DNA from: Flammeovirgaceae bacterium
GTDB lineage: Bacteria > Bacteroidota > Bacteroidia > Cytophagales > Cyclobacteriaceae
Length of the DNA stretch: 64,000 nt
Direction of reading: 5' to 3'
NCBI GenBank assembly: GCA_021298015.1
Contig: JAJTGY010000015.1
Span: 1 to 64,000, forward strand
Under the pieces are notes generated by a model, which was given only the letters and a program-made list of their open reading frames with translations, had not been told where the DNA came from and ran no database searches. Of this stretch, positions 32,998-37,900 are shown piece by piece. The first letter of the stretch is position 1. Every line of letters starts with the position of its first letter. Both the position numbers and the translations under genes were made by a program.

Positions 32998-33028
32998 ATC
33001 AAGCGGGCTACCATAGCTATTCCTTTTT

Positions 33029-33036
33029 TATCTTTG
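33029..33036 (+). promoter_or_regulatory. -7 promoter box (TATCTTTG) of the restriction-modification operon
   Basis: Exact TAnnTTTG match preceded by a T run, 10 bases upstream of ATG 33047. It gives the restriction-modification genes their own promoter. Confidence 0.55.
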
Positions 33037-33046
33037 GCACCTGCCC

Positions 33047-36007
33047 ATGACGCGCCAAGAAGCCAAACTGCAAATCCAAAAACTGGTAGATCGCTACCAT
33101 GAACACCGAGAGCAATACTTGGCGGCAGATTACAACGAAGCCAAAACACGCCAGGATTTTATCAACCCGCTCTTTAAAGCCCTCGGCTGGGACATCGACA
33201 ACGAACGGGGAGATAGCGAAGCCTACCGCGAAGTAATCTACGAAGACAAAGTGCTGGTACGCGGCCAGCAAAAAGCCCCCGACTACGGCTTTCGCCTGCA
33301 AGGCAGTGGCAAAGCCCGCCTGTTTTATGTGGAAGCCAAAAAACCTTCCGTTAAACCACCTTTAAAACTCAATCGCGAAGCCGCCTATCAACTCAGGCGC
33401 TACGGCAGCAGCGCGCAGGTGCCACTGTCTATCCTCACCAACTTCGAAGATTTTATGGTGTACGACTGCACCCGCGTGCCCAACCAAAACGACAGCGCCA
33501 GCGTGGCCCGCATCAAACACCTGACGTACGACCGGTATGTAGCTGAGTTTGACTTTCTCTACGATACCTTCTCGCACGAGGCTGTTACCCGCGGCCGCTT
33601 CGACAAGTTTGTGCAGAGCGATGCTGTAAAAAAAGGCAAAGACACGCTGGACAAACGCTTTGTACAAAGTCTGGACGAGTGGCGATTATACCTGGCCAAA
33701 AGCATTGCCACCAGCAACAAAAAAATTGACGATGAGCAACTCAACTATGCCGTGCAACTGCTCATCGATCGGCTCATTTTCTTACGCTTCTGCGAAGACC
33801 GGGCCGTAGAACCTTACGGCCAGTTAAAACAAGAAACCACCAAAGGCGATCTGTACAAAAATCTGTTTGGCCTCTTCAAAAAGGCCGATGCCAAGTATAA
33901 CTCGGGCCTCTTCGATTTTAAGAAAGATACCATTACGCCCGCGCTCAAGGTAGATAACAAAGTCATCCGCAATATTGTGGAAGACTTGTATTACCCCAAC
34001 TGCAACTACGAGTTTTCGGTGATGCCCGTAGAAATTCTGGGCAATGCCTACGAACAGTTTCTCGGCAAAATTATTCGCATTACCCCCGCGCGCAGCGTAA
34101 AAATTGACGAAAAACCCGAGGTGCGCAAAGCCGGTGGCATGTACTATACGCCTCAGTACATCGTCAACTATATTGTAGAACAAACCGTAGGCAAGTTGAT
34201 TACGGGCAAAACGCCCAACCAAATCAGCGAGCTGAAAATTGTAGACCCTGCCTGCGGCAGCGGTTCGTTTTTGCTGGGCGCATTTGAATATCTGCTCAAC
34301 TATCACAGCCAATGGTATCACCAAAACCCAACCGCAACACGCAAAGGCGGTGAGGTGCTCACCCCGCAAGGCACACTCACCACCAGGGAGAAGAAACGCA
34401 TCTTGCTCAACAACATTTACGGAGTGGATATTGATGCCAACGCGGTGGAGGTAACCAAACTCAGTTTACTGCTTAAGTGCATGGAAGGCGAAACCGAAGC
34501 CAGCATACAACAGCAGCTTTCCATGTTTCACGAGCGCGTACTGCCCGACTTGGACAACAACATTAAAGACGGCAACAGTTTAGTTGATACAGACTTTTAC
34601 GACAACCAAATCGACTACGGTTTTGAGCGCAAGATCAAACCCTTTAGCTGGCAAAAAGGTTTTCCACCAGTATTTAAGCAAGGTGGTTTTGATGCCGTAA
34701 TTGGCAACCCGCCTTATGTGCGGCATGAATTGCTGATTGATTTTAAAGAGTACTTTGAAGGCCACTACCGCGTGTTTCATGGCATGGCCGATTTGTACAG
34801 TTACTTTTTTGAGCGCGGCATTCAGTTGCTCAATGACTCCGGTTTGTTCGGTATTATTGTAGCCAACAAATGGATGCGGGCCAACTATGGCGAGCCGCTG
34901 CGCAAGTGGTTGAAAGAGCAAAGCATTTACCAAATCATCGACTTTGGCGATTTGCCCGTGTTTCAATCAGCCACCACGTACCCGCTGATTTTAATTGCCG
35001 GAAAATCTAACAAGGCCAACTCGCATTTTGATTTTGTAAACGTAAACACGCTGGAGTTCTCTAACCTGGGCAGCTATCTGCAAGATCGGTTTACGCGGGC
35101 CGGCAAAGATTCACTAACGGCCGAAGGCTGGAACCTCGCCTCCGATGCAGAACAAAAACTGTTGAACAAGCTGGCCAAAACCGGTGTGCCACTGGGCGAG
35201 TATGTAAAAGGAAAAATTTACTACGGCATTAAGACTGGCTTGAACGAGGCCTTTGTGATTGACGAAGCCACACGCAAGGCGTTGATCAAAGAAGACAAAA
35301 GGAGCGCGGAGTTGATCAAACCCTTTTTAGCCGGGCGCGATATAAAACGATACCAGCAACCACATAGCGAGAGCTCGTTGATTTTAATTCCAAGCGGCTT
35401 TACAAACAAGGTTGGGAAAAATCCAAAGAGTTCTTGGTTGTGGTTCTCAGCCGCATATCCTGCAATAGCCAATCATCTAAAGAAATTTGATGTAAAAGCT
35501 AAAAAACGATATGACCAAGGCGATTATTGGTGGGAGCTCAGGCCTTGCGACTACTACACTGAATTCGAAAAACCAAAAATCATTATTCCGGCAATTGTTA
35601 AGAATGCTTCGTATGCTTGGGATGAAAATAAGATCTACTCGAATGATAAAACATCAATCATCCCAACTACAGAGAAGTATTTGCTGGCTATTCTCAATTC
35701 CAAAGCTTGCGACTATTTTCTGAAGTCGATTGCTTCTACAAAGCAAGGTGGATATTTTGAGTACAAGCCGATGTACATCGAAAAGCTGCCGATTCCCCAA
35801 CCAAAAGACAAATCCGCCATCAACGAACTTGTAACCACACTGCTTGCGTTGAACGCAGAGTCACTTGGTGAGAGCTTGCCAGCGAACCTCCAACAACTCC
35901 AAAACCGCATCGCGCACACCGAAGAAAAAATAGATGAGCTCGTGTACGAGTTGTATCAACTTACCCCGGAAGAAATTAAGCTGGTGGAGGCAGCCACGCA
36001 TGAGTAA
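33047..36007 (+). CDS. Type IIG restriction-modification enzyme (Eco57I-like, nuclease-methylase-specificity fusion)
   Basis: 986 residues. An N-terminal nuclease domain has PDYGFR (78-83) and FYVEAKKP with the EAK triad end at 96-98, a PD-(D/E)xK layout. A helical connector follows to about 355. The adenine methylase has motif X GMYYTPQYIV (364), motif I DPACGSGSF (400) and motif IV NPPYV (554-558), indicating N6-adenine methylation. The C-terminal third (about 660-960) is a TaqI-like target recognition domain: IYYGIKTGLNEAFVID, LIKPFLAGRDIKRY, KLPIPQPKD. One chain both methylates and cuts. The part at 35380-35770 is clearly more AT-rich than the rest. Its end overlaps the next gene by 8 bases. 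Confidence 0.88.
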   Translation: MTRQEAKLQIQKLVDRYHEHREQYLAADYNEAKTRQDFINPLFKALGWDIDNERGDSEAYREVIYEDKVLVRGQQKAPDYGFRLQGSGKARLFYVEAKKPSVKPPLKLNREAAYQLRRYGSSAQVPLSILTNFEDFMVYDCTRVPNQNDSASVARIKHLTYDRYVAEFDFLYDTFSHEAVTRGRFDKFVQSDAVKKGKDTLDKRFVQSLDEWRLYLAKSIATSNKKIDDEQLNYAVQLLIDRLIFLRFCEDRAVEPYGQLKQETTKGDLYKNLFGLFKKADAKYNSGLFDFKKDTITPALKVDNKVIRNIVEDLYYPNCNYEFSVMPVEILGNAYEQFLGKIIRITPARSVKIDEKPEVRKAGGMYYTPQYIVNYIVEQTVGKLITGKTPNQISELKIVDPACGSGSFLLGAFEYLLNYHSQWYHQNPTATRKGGEVLTPQGTLTTREKKRILLNNIYGVDIDANAVEVTKLSLLLKCMEGETEASIQQQLSMFHERVLPDLDNNIKDGNSLVDTDFYDNQIDYGFERKIKPFSWQKGFPPVFKQGGFDAVIGNPPYVRHELLIDFKEYFEGHYRVFHGMADLYSYFFERGIQLLNDSGLFGIIVANKWMRANYGEPLRKWLKEQSIYQIIDFGDLPVFQSATTYPLILIAGKSNKANSHFDFVNVNTLEFSNLGSYLQDRFTRAGKDSLTAEGWNLASDAEQKLLNKLAKTGVPLGEYVKGKIYYGIKTGLNEAFVIDEATRKALIKEDKRSAELIKPFLAGRDIKRYQQPHSESSLILIPSGFTNKVGKNPKSSWLWFSAAYPAIANHLKKFDVKAKKRYDQGDYWWELRPCDYYTEFEKPKIIIPAIVKNASYAWDENKIYSNDKTSIIPTTEKYLLAILNSKACDYFLKSIASTKQGGYFEYKPMYIEKLPIPQPKDKSAINELVTTLLALNAESLGESLPANLQQLQNRIAHTEEKIDELVYELYQLTPEEIKLVEAATHE

Positions 36008-36398
36008 GGCCACCCAACTGCAAGAAGCATTAGACCATGCCGAGGCCAACGTGCAACACATGGCCACCTGGAGCCAGCGGCAGTTGGCCGAGCGGCTGGA
36101 GGTAGTACACATTCAAAGTCAACTGGCCGAAGAAAAGAAAGACACCGCAGCGCTGGAGCTGCTGGAAGTATGGCGCAGCCAACTGATCGCTGCCCGCCTC
36201 TACAAAGCAGAACACCACGTGCCTGATACGCTCTCGGATATTAAACAGGCCATTGCGGAGATAGAAACAATTCAAAACCACGCAGACGACCGCCAGGAAG
36301 CACTCGGTGAAGAACCAGAAGTCTCCGAGCCCTCCCGGCCTTCGCAAAAGCAGCGACCTAAATCCGAACCAGCCGAAAGCCAATTGGGATTGTTTTAA
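36000..36398 (+). CDS. Small helical protein coupled to the type IIG enzyme, with C-terminal QLGLF
   Basis: 132 residues starting at ATG 36000, within the last codons of the restriction-modification gene (8-base overlap), so it is translationally coupled to it. Residues 1-100 are predicted helical and Gln/Glu/Ala-rich (LQEALDHAEANVQHMATWSQ, RQLAERLEVVHIQSQLAEEK). Residues 100-125 are a disordered Pro/Ser/Lys linker, and the chain ends with ESQLGLF. QLGLF fits the QL(S/D/G)LF pentapeptide by which bacterial proteins bind the DNA polymerase sliding clamp. No known family is recognised. It may tether the enzyme to replicating DNA; this is inference. Confidence 0.75.
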   Translation: MSKATQLQEALDHAEANVQHMATWSQRQLAERLEVVHIQSQLAEEKKDTAALELLEVWRSQLIAARLYKAEHHVPDTLSDIKQAIAEIETIQNHADDRQEALGEEPEVSEPSRPSQKQRPKSEPAESQLGLF

Positions 36399-36464
36399 GC
36401 GCATGAGCCGTTGGGGCTTTCAACTTTCATGTAACCTTTTCCACCTTAGAAAGTAATCCGGTGG

Positions 36465-36500
36465 AAACTCCCTTGGTCTTTCTCGTCCCAAGGGCGTTTT
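36465..36500 (+). terminator. Intrinsic terminator of the restriction-modification operon
   Basis: Stem AAACTCCCTTGG / CCAAGGGCGTTT (11 pairs with one mismatch) and an 11-base loop, then TCC. It lies 66 bases after the stop of 36000-36398. Confidence 0.65.
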
Positions 36501-36566
36501 CCTTTCTGATGGAAGAAACAAATAATCAACTACTTACTGAAATTTTTTTCTACTTTCTTGTATCTG

Positions 36567-36618
36567 ACAAAGTAAAGTTAACCTACATTCTTGATGCCGC
36601 TAAAACAGTAGCATTTTT
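36567..36618 (+). pseudogene. Remnant duplicate of the neighbouring epimerase gene
   Basis: Bases 36579-36618 match 37545-37584 inside the intact epimerase gene at 38 of 40 positions, in the same frame (LTYILDAAKTVAFF versus VTYIPDAAKAVAFL), with weaker similarity extending upstream to about 36550. The rest of the gene is gone and the frame ends at 36706. It shows that a second copy once lay here or that a piece was copied by local recombination. Confidence 0.65.
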
Positions 36619-36624
36619 CCGCCA

Positions 36625-36646
36625 TGTCAGGTGTTATCACCTGACA
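36625..36646. repeat. Short perfect hairpin next to the epimerase remnant
   Basis: TGTCAGGTG TTAT CACCTGACA forms 9 perfect pairs around a 4-base loop, only 7 bases after the duplicated epimerase segment ends. No T tract follows, so it does not look like a terminator; it may mark the recombination point. Confidence 0.5.
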
Positions 36647-36743
36647 GCGCCCAAAATAAATTCTTCTTACAAAAAATATTTATTGACTTTGGTCAACGAA
36701 AAATAAGTTGTCTAGCCTCAATCTTTGTGGGAGTATAAATTGA

Positions 36744-36967: not shown

Positions 36968-37900
36968 ATGAGTTTACAAACAATAATTGGCGGAAATGGA
37001 ACCATTGGCAAAGAAGTGGCCAAACAACTTCATGGCATGAATATCCAGGTCAGAATTGCTTCGCGAACTCCCAAGAAAGTTAACGCTACTGATCAGGTTA
37101 TTGAAATGGATGTATTTAACGAACAAAGTGTCTCAGAGGCAATCAAAGGTTCATCTGTGGTTTATTTGATCCTTGGTTTACCCTATAAGGACCAAGTTTG
37201 GCTTGACGGTTTTCCAAGAGCTGTTCGTTCTGTAATAAATGCTTGTAAAAAAGAAGGAGCTAAAATGGTTTATTTTGACAATGTCTATATGTATGGGCGT
37301 GTTGACGGAACCATGACAGAAGATCTTCCAGGTAAACCAGATTCGGTGAAGGGTACTGCTAGAATGATTGCAGCAGATCATATTTTAGAGGCGATAAAAA
37401 GTCAAAAACTACAGGCCATGATATGCAGGTCAGCCGATTTTTATGGAGACTACCCCTTCTTTGATGTAATAAAGCAAATTGCTGTTGCCTTGCAAAAAAA
37501 TAAAAAGGCGATACTTCTTTTCCGTGACGACAAAAAACATAGCGTAACCTACATTCCTGATGCCGCTAAAGCAGTAGCATTTTTGGCTCAGCAATCTGAT
37601 GCTTATCAACAAATATGGCACCTACCAACAGATCCCAATGCCCTAAGTGGCAAACAACTTGTTGAGCTCGTTGCTGAAATCATCAAAAAAGAACCGAGAT
37701 ACCAAGTGATTTCTAAAGGAATGATAAAATTCATTTCCTTCTTCAACGCACAGCTCAAAGAGCTAATAAAACTGTCCTATCAGTGGGAAAATGATTATTT
37801 ATTTAGCAGCCAAAAACTGGAAAAAAAATATAATTTAACAGCCTCATCTTATAGAGAAGGTATAACTGATCACCTTAAAAAGATTGGTATTCTTAAATAA
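36968..37900 (+). CDS. NAD(P)-dependent epimerase/SDR-like protein, horizontally acquired
   Basis: 310 residues of the extended-SDR type: TIIGGNGTIGKEVAKQL (nucleotide-binding glycines), VVYLILGLPYKD, YFDNVYMYG with the Tyr of the active-site region, ICRSADFYGDYPFF, and HSVTYIPDAAKAVAFLAQ near the substrate end. Relatives act on sugar nucleotides or flavonoid-like compounds; no substrate can be assigned. Base composition is strikingly AT-rich compared with genes on both sides, and codon choice differs, suggesting recent import. It lies downstream of a fragment duplicating its own residues 193-205 and next to repeat sequences. Confidence 0.8.
   Translation: MSLQTIIGGNGTIGKEVAKQLHGMNIQVRIASRTPKKVNATDQVIEMDVFNEQSVSEAIKGSSVVYLILGLPYKDQVWLDGFPRAVRSVINACKKEGAKMVYFDNVYMYGRVDGTMTEDLPGKPDSVKGTARMIAADHILEAIKSQKLQAMICRSADFYGDYPFFDVIKQIAVALQKNKKAILLFRDDKKHSVTYIPDAAKAVAFLAQQSDAYQQIWHLPTDPNALSGKQLVELVAEIIKKEPRYQVISKGMIKFISFFNAQLKELIKLSYQWENDYLFSSQKLEKKYNLTASSYREGITDHLKKIGILK

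Follow-up and report, generated by a model that had tools for sequence, protein, structure and literature searches.

A helical protein with a conserved clamp-type C-terminal motif encoded in overlap with a type IIG restriction-modification gene of a Flammeovirgaceae bacterium

The first 64,000 nucleotides (nt) of contig JAJTGY010000015.1 from a Flammeovirgaceae bacterium (assembly GCA_021298015.1; this whole stretch is hereinafter the window) code for a type IIG restriction-modification enzyme whose gene overlaps that of a small helical protein ending in QLGLF, a predicted binding motif for the bacterial sliding clamp, DnaN (Table 1). Across the family of this small protein, the comparison of homologs indicates that a clamp-type terminal motif of the form QxxLF has been kept by selection, and many of the genes coding for it lie downstream of a homologous type IIG gene. 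We propose, at a probability of a little under one half (about 0.46), that the small protein is a dedicated adaptor, which tethers the type IIG enzyme to the clamp behind the replication fork. Below we lay out the evidence for the motif and for the association with the enzyme, and weigh the adaptor against four other readings of the same protein.

Table 1. Features of the restriction unit in window coordinates
Feature	Coordinates	Strand	Basis
Type IIG restriction-modification enzyme, 986 amino acids (aa), single chain	33047..36007	+	Open reading frame (ORF) list, domain and PADLOC matches
Candidate clamp adaptor, 132 aa: four helices and a disordered tail	36000..36398	+	ORF, AlphaFold2, homolog alignment
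QLGLF, the last five residues of the small protein, predicted to bind the clamp	36381..36395	+	Conservation in 22 copies, published consensus
Unit of enzyme and small gene common to the genus mate G054, with unrelated flanks	33010..36398	.	100-nt block comparison

The enzyme and the small gene overlapping it

As read from its domains and motifs, the product of the upstream gene is a type IIG restriction-modification enzyme. Pfam matches to HSDR_N (E = 7.4e-09), Eco57I (4.6e-48) and TaqI_C (6.9e-16) place the nuclease, methylase and recognition functions in one polypeptide, with an HSDR_N-like PD-(D/E)xK nuclease followed by a helical linker, an N6-adenine methyltransferase (matched by Eco57I, N6_Mtase and MmeI_Mtase), a TaqI_C target-recognition domain and C-terminal helices, and the PADLOC model REase_MTase_IIG (PDLC03604) covers residues 2–977 (E = 3.9e-213). 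The motifs of both activities are present, namely PD...EAKK of the nuclease and DPACGSG and NPPY of the gamma-class methylase. The chain ends in LVYELYQLTPEEIKLVE. Type IIG enzymes cut beside an asymmetric site in a manner that depends on, or is stimulated by, S-adenosylmethionine. An identity as the PglX/BrxX protein of bacteriophage exclusion (BREX) systems was rejected, the best PglX model reaching 132.5 bits vs a curated cut-off of 500. The single-sequence AlphaFold2 model of the enzyme had a mean predicted local distance difference test (pLDDT) score of 34 and was left unused.

An initial annotation of this DNA had described an enzyme gene sharing 8 bases with the gene of a 132-residue protein, helical except for a disordered tail with QLGLF at its end, and each of these elements was recovered. 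The two ORFs have the 8 nt ATGAGTAA in common, and the translation of the small one ends in ...AESQLGLF. Its frame stays open upstream and would yield 154 aa if begun at 35934; the ATG at 36000 is the start common to most homologs in the alignment. The AlphaFold2 model, built from five sequences, predicts four helices (residues 3–21, 26–45, 49–72 and 79–102), with 67 residues at a pLDDT of at least 90 and a tail (residues 101–132) lying nearly wholly below 50. Neither the window protein nor the 22 motif-bearing members of its family gave a convincing match in Pfam, NCBIfam or PADLOC (PHROGs being left out); by sequence no relative of the small protein was found in the PDB (best E 0.14 and 0.16), and a fold search of the PDB with its model returned nothing at E ≤ 0.001 (best E 0.97). 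Weak Pfam matches to PDDEXK_2, seen in 4 of the 22 members at E-values of 0.0063 at best, were put down to noise from the helices, and that identity was rejected. By these sequence searches, the small protein represents a previously unclassified family without a match in the libraries covered.

The homology between the window and its genus mate G054 begins at position 33010 and ends with the small gene, the flanks being unrelated, and the enzyme and the small gene are therefore a shared unit. Most 100-nt blocks of this unit are 93–100% identical in the two genomes. Identity drops to 0.88 in block 34810 and to 0.84 in block 35210, both in the enzyme gene, and the three final blocks, which fall within the small gene, stand at 0.83, 0.63 and 0.63. 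The enzymes are 98% identical and both small proteins end in QLGLF, albeit in different codons; the motif thus survives where the rest of the tail diverges. The small genes at window positions 36000-36398 and at L037:6001-6390, which adjoin nearly identical enzyme genes, are almost identical over about the first 110 nt and fall to 0.63 in the last two 100-nt blocks, resembling a recombination break in the gene.

The terminal QxxLF motif and the host clamp

We found 29 copies of the small protein, all in Bacteroidota: 26 distinct fetched copies, that of the window, and L129 and L140 from the final profile check. The underlying searches gave matches in 3 of 146 relatives' genomes and in 20 of the 395 genomes of a class sample (the own genome included in both), and four loci in a contig-level genome search, two of them already among the relatives' matches. 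A 22-row profile retrieved the window's own copy alone from a phylum-wide sample of 395 genomes and a single match, the L140 copy, from 15 order-level genomes. No relative was found in viral contigs, in phage records searched with the window protein, or in plasmid records searched with the copy of L068. A class-sample match in G641 (E 0.0095) was left out of the copies. The rows of the profile alignment are full-length copies chosen with the motif in view; outside it stand the broken copies L077 (frameshift near the end), L083 (in-frame stop) and L081, and the weaker relatives L085, L086, L129 and L140. Past their lesions L077 and L083 still encode QLSLF, and L081 has no motif in any frame.

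The initial annotation had staked the clamp idea on the presence of QLxLF in orthologs. Of the 29 copies, 22 have QxxLF, among them all unbroken ones with E-values below 1e-10, and the four weaker relatives are without it; on sequence, the clamp idea thus holds for the close family, the more distant members lacking the motif. It forms the very C-terminus in 20 of the 22 copies, with 8 extra residues in L040 and 3 in L084. Positions 1, 4 and 5 are invariant, position 2 is occupied by L (15 copies), M (5), F (1) or T (1), and position 3 by S (13), G (3), T (3), N (2) or D (1). The codons behind the invariant positions 1, 4 and 5 differ in 52%, 67% and 17% of sequence pairs, respectively, and the motif closes the most variable part of the protein, the amino-acid difference among pairs being 77% in the tail (101–127) and 52% in the core (1–100).

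As a background, we collected the 525 ORFs of at least 100 aa from the window and 64 fetched loci, of which 23 match the family profile and 502 lie outside the family. Altogether 21 of the 525 end in QxxLF, 19 of them belonging to the small-protein family; outside it, 2 of 502 end exactly in QxxLF and 6 carry it in their last 20 residues. Family conservation, codon variation and this rarity in the background rule out QLGLF as a chance ending, and together they indicate that the terminal motif is maintained by selection. The enzymes themselves contain QxxLF-type strings as well, mostly near residue 490–530, where they are probably structural; a match is present in 11 of the 17 enzymes linked to a small gene and in 13 of the 40 that are unlinked. 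Since such strings exist, a bare QxxLF match means little, and the argument stands because of the terminal position of the motif and its invariance. A terminal clamp motif on the enzyme itself was considered and rejected: none of 57 enzymes has one within the last 60 residues.

The two non-family proteins ending in QxxLF are 270–275 aa long and 74% identical to each other (L126:3805-4632, minus strand, and L086:11449-12261, plus strand). That of L126 is the second gene after a type IIG gene, while that of L086 lies 1.7 kb beyond an isolated enzyme 3′ end; they form a second family, possibly of clamp-motif accessories.

The published bacterial clamp-binding consensus is QL[S/D]LF or, more generally, QxxLF (PMC12309361, PMC13254535, PMC9690074), and in Escherichia coli the mutation of positions 1, 4 and 5, those invariant here, weakens clamp binding the most (PMC12309361). 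The host genome of the window (3.6 Mb across 115 contigs) codes for an ordinary beta clamp, DnaN (contig C25; best PDB match E 9.9e-93), and for a MutS with QMSLF 44 residues before its end and a Pol IV with QIHLF; the second MutS_V protein of the genome has no such motif. As in clamp clients, the QxxLF of the small protein sits in a segment that is terminal in the alignment and, by its predicted disorder, exposed. From what is known of this motif family, the tail of the small protein very likely binds DnaN.

Linkage to the enzyme and the slot behind it

A recurrence of the small protein beside other type IIG genes, which the initial annotation had suggested looking for, was indeed found. Of the 22 motif-bearing copies, 16 (that of the window and 15 others) have a homologous type IIG gene before them in the same orientation. 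The two genes overlap directly in eight of these (the window, L037, L039, L068, L070, L071, L075 and L084, with the enzyme broken in L071), and one to three other genes, mostly unrelated, intervene in the other eight (for example DUF559 in L066 and, by eye, also L069 and L079). In the class samples the small protein is matched in 20 of 395 genomes, the enzyme at E ≤ 1e-150 in 27, and both in 12, giving an odds ratio of 36 and a Fisher p of about 6e-11 (6e-10 without the own genome), a p-value which is a rough guide, the genomes being related and the two 395-genome samples being taken as the same set.

A quick tree of 57 enzymes, 17 with the partner and 40 without, needs five label changes vs a shuffle mean of about 15. 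Here L129 and L140 are counted as being without a partner; counting them as having one gives six changes, and removing them along with L077, L135, L144, L148 and L149 (the last four with <350 nt downstream) again gives five. The 40 unlinked loci are those fetched, weaker, partial or longer (about 1300 aa) matches being left out. One enzyme clade has 14 partner-bearing members out of 15, counting L077, whose small gene is broken, and the partner-bearing enzymes of L038, L075 and L084 are placed singly elsewhere; the finer branches are unsure because the tree includes the exchanged recognition domain. Over 16 pairs, the distances between small proteins correlate with those between enzyme parts (Spearman) at 0.77 for the nuclease, 0.74 for the linker, 0.65 for the C-terminus, 0.43 for the methylase and 0.28 for the recognition domain. 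The small protein hence tracks the distant N-terminal part of the enzyme more closely than it does the nearer recognition domain. Taken together, these patterns render a functional coupling of the small protein to the enzyme plausible. The coupling that the initial annotation had put forward survives as an association; the solitary copies of the small gene and the enzymes that do without it speak against a strict partnership. A partner for each type IIG enzyme of this sort was rejected, as many enzyme relatives lack the small gene.

Several observations weigh against a dedicated adaptor. The upstream sequence of four motif-bearing copies contains no enzyme gene (L040, 6.0 kb; L072, 1.9 kb; L078, 8.0 kb; L082, 8.0 kb); in L067 and L080 just 0.32 and 0.67 kb upstream are covered, and the enzyme gene is not in it. 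Eight of the 20 small-protein genomes are without the enzyme at E ≤ 1e-150, and 15 of the 27 enzyme genomes are without the small protein. When seven of the former eight were searched again, nothing related to the enzyme turned up at E ≤ 1e-20 in G434, G450, G482, G593 and G712, whereas G375 yielded weaker relatives (best 1.5e-114) and G632 a fragment. The co-divergence may stem from linkage and shared descent. A glycine at motif position 3, as in the QLGLF of the window, weakens binding to the E. coli clamp (PMC12309361). The relatives without QxxLF have E-values of 2.7e-10 (L085, with 73 aa, body only), 3.7e-9 (L086, an open frame of 145 aa), 3.8e-6 (L129) and 5.4e-10 (L140). Moreover, L140:1124-1450 and L129:4114-4491 (both on the minus strand, in type IIG loci) carry an alternative tail on the family body, which resembles the C-terminus of the enzymes themselves, DLYGLTAEERELL, clearly in L140 and by eye in L129. 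These four motif-less relatives lowered our confidence both in the adaptor and in a clamp-coupled system built on it. Lastly, in 15 of the 40 unlinked enzyme loci another gene on the same strand starts ≤16 nt from the enzyme stop, and the overlap alone is therefore no proof of coupling.

The genes occupying this slot include one for a TIR-domain protein (L122) and one for a weakly SIR2-like protein (L137), both starting within 3 bases of the enzyme stop; the slot genes of L117 and L119, which complete the four scanned among the 15, have no Pfam match. This suggests that the position behind the enzyme is an accessory slot used by several defence genes. Furthermore, the last 40–50 codons of type IIG genes (LVYELYELTxEEIKIVE) are seen in isolation, away from the enzyme body, in L124, L140, L033, L078, L085, L086 and L036. 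Such isolated 3′ ends are seen ahead of the small gene in L078 and L085 and, with a weak match, in L036; that of L086 lies 1.8 kb beyond it. In L124 (G447 contig 18) the enzyme 3′ end forms direct repeats of 54–90 nt, in three or four copies including the enzyme's own, with other sequence between them. We take these arrangements to suggest that the 3′ end of type IIG genes is a recurrent point of exchange or integration.

An exchange point of this kind supports a rival in which the small gene is a passenger cassette, coding for an independent clamp-binding defence or anti-phage protein which lodges in the slot 3′ of type IIG genes and acts without the enzyme, and we therefore keep the adaptor slightly under one half. 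The other slot occupants, the motif-bearing copies without a nearby enzyme gene, the stranded enzyme 3′ ends and L124 repeats, and the mostly unrelated genes between enzyme and small gene in half of the linked cases all speak for such a passenger. However, the partner is retained in nearly all members of one enzyme clade, it co-diverges with the nuclease and linker, and it stays in place while the intervening genes vary; an independent passenger is hence unlikely in our judgement, though it fares best among the rivals.

The same co-divergence could be read differently, given that it follows the nuclease and linker rather than the methylase or recognition domain. The small protein might be a brake or sensor that inhibits the nuclease, with the clamps of a replicating host or phage removing or switching it, thereby restraining cutting at host forks or triggering it upon phage replication. 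The nuclease motif PD...ExK is kept in the 16 linked enzymes that cover the region (L084 has EAKS in place of EAKK; L077 is without the region), but numerous relatives of these enzymes have the motif and lack the small protein, and we consider this reading improbable.

At L078:7924-10814 (minus strand), an intact small gene comes after an isolated type IIG 3′ end and a Schlafen-group-3 helicase that also matches GIY-YIG and S24-like models; no enzyme body was found in the genome of L078 at E ≤ 1e-20. In the window, a short ORF just after the restriction unit (36461-36706, plus strand) weakly resembles part of the NAD-dependent epimerase-like gene at 36968-37900 (local match, score 54) and is perhaps a gene remnant.

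A proposed mechanism and its place among known systems

If the small protein is an adaptor, its helical body would dock on the enzyme, with the nuclease and helical linker as the most likely site, and QLGLF at the end of the disordered tail would bind in the hydrophobic cleft of the host DnaN. Clamps that stay on the DNA after the fork has passed would then keep the enzyme close to newly made DNA, and recognition sites left unmarked by replication would be methylated before they could be cut. At their asymmetric sites, MmeI-type enzymes methylate a single strand. The window enzyme, which has a single methylase and a single recognition domain, would probably do likewise, and after replication one daughter of each site would be fully unmarked; it is because of this unmarked daughter that tethering would matter most here. 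We infer the docking, the one-strand methylation and the maintenance role, and take the clamp binding from family knowledge of the motif. How the problem of the unmarked daughter is solved in vivo has been called mostly obscure in a recent review (PMC12707154). The pair as a whole may, tentatively, be a restriction-modification system that is clamp-coupled via its own adaptor subunit, re-marking or sparing sites behind the fork as a bacterial analogue of Dnmt1–PCNA. If true, its own clamp-tagged protein makes one answer to that problem testable with purified proteins, DnaN and tail mutants. The pair suggests a defence enzyme tied to DNA copying, and the small-protein family can be used to seek further clamp-linked defence modules.

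Two other readings touch on the clamp motif itself. The small protein could be a clamp poison that blocks DnaN, bringing about abortive infection or addiction to the restriction module. Such proteins have precedents in SocB, which binds the clamp via the usual clamp-binding motif (PMC9690074), and RipA, which acts on DnaN (PMC12795458), and solitary copies could act alone in this manner. SocB and RipA share with the small protein an actual or predicted action on DnaN, but they belong to toxin–antitoxin systems and not to restriction modules; no antitoxin-like partner was recognised here, the motif is a single ordinary one, and the small gene is kept in nearly all of one enzyme clade, making a poison very unlikely. 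That the terminal QxxLF serves something other than DnaN, such as docking on the enzyme, might be argued from the probably structural strings inside the enzymes and from the other tail on the family body in L140 and L129, yet its place at the end of a disordered tail, its invariant residues and its likeness to the MutS motif of the same genome make this the most remote of the readings.

Among the literature matches listed, which include few subscription papers and no preprints, no restriction-modification system with a clamp-binding partner is described, an absence which on such coverage is unproven. To our knowledge, type IIG enzymes are described as needing no partner. Like other members of the class (PDLC03604; Eco57I/MmeI-like, TaqI_C), the window enzyme unites nuclease, methylase and recognition domain in a single polypeptide; what the window adds is a conserved helical protein bearing a clamp motif, encoded by another gene that overlaps that of the enzyme. 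That protein resembles the bacterial clamp clients MutS, Pol IV, PolC and transposases in its QLxLF-type pentapeptide, which in these is often C-terminal (PMC4549789, PMC12309361), as with the C-terminal QLxLF tails borne by transposases (PMC4549789). Unlike the small protein, none of these clients is a restriction-modification accessory.

A likeness in function is offered by the plasmid methyltransferases M.EcoGIX and M.BceJIII, whose methylation is tied to replication, as we propose here (PMC7736820). Pol I was identified as a partner of these, the clamp coming in via Pol I, and a host protein was suspected as intermediary (PMC7736820); they differ in being single-strand-specific methylases, and the available portion of that paper mentions no clamp-motif partner protein (PMC7736820). 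A further parallel to the proposed pair comes from eukaryotes, where PCNA is believed to help Dnmt1 act on hemimethylated DNA (PMC9690074). In both cases a methyltransferase would be brought to newly replicated DNA by a sliding clamp; however, Dnmt1 has its own clamp motif, whereas that of the window pair sits on a separate small protein and its enzyme also carries a nuclease.

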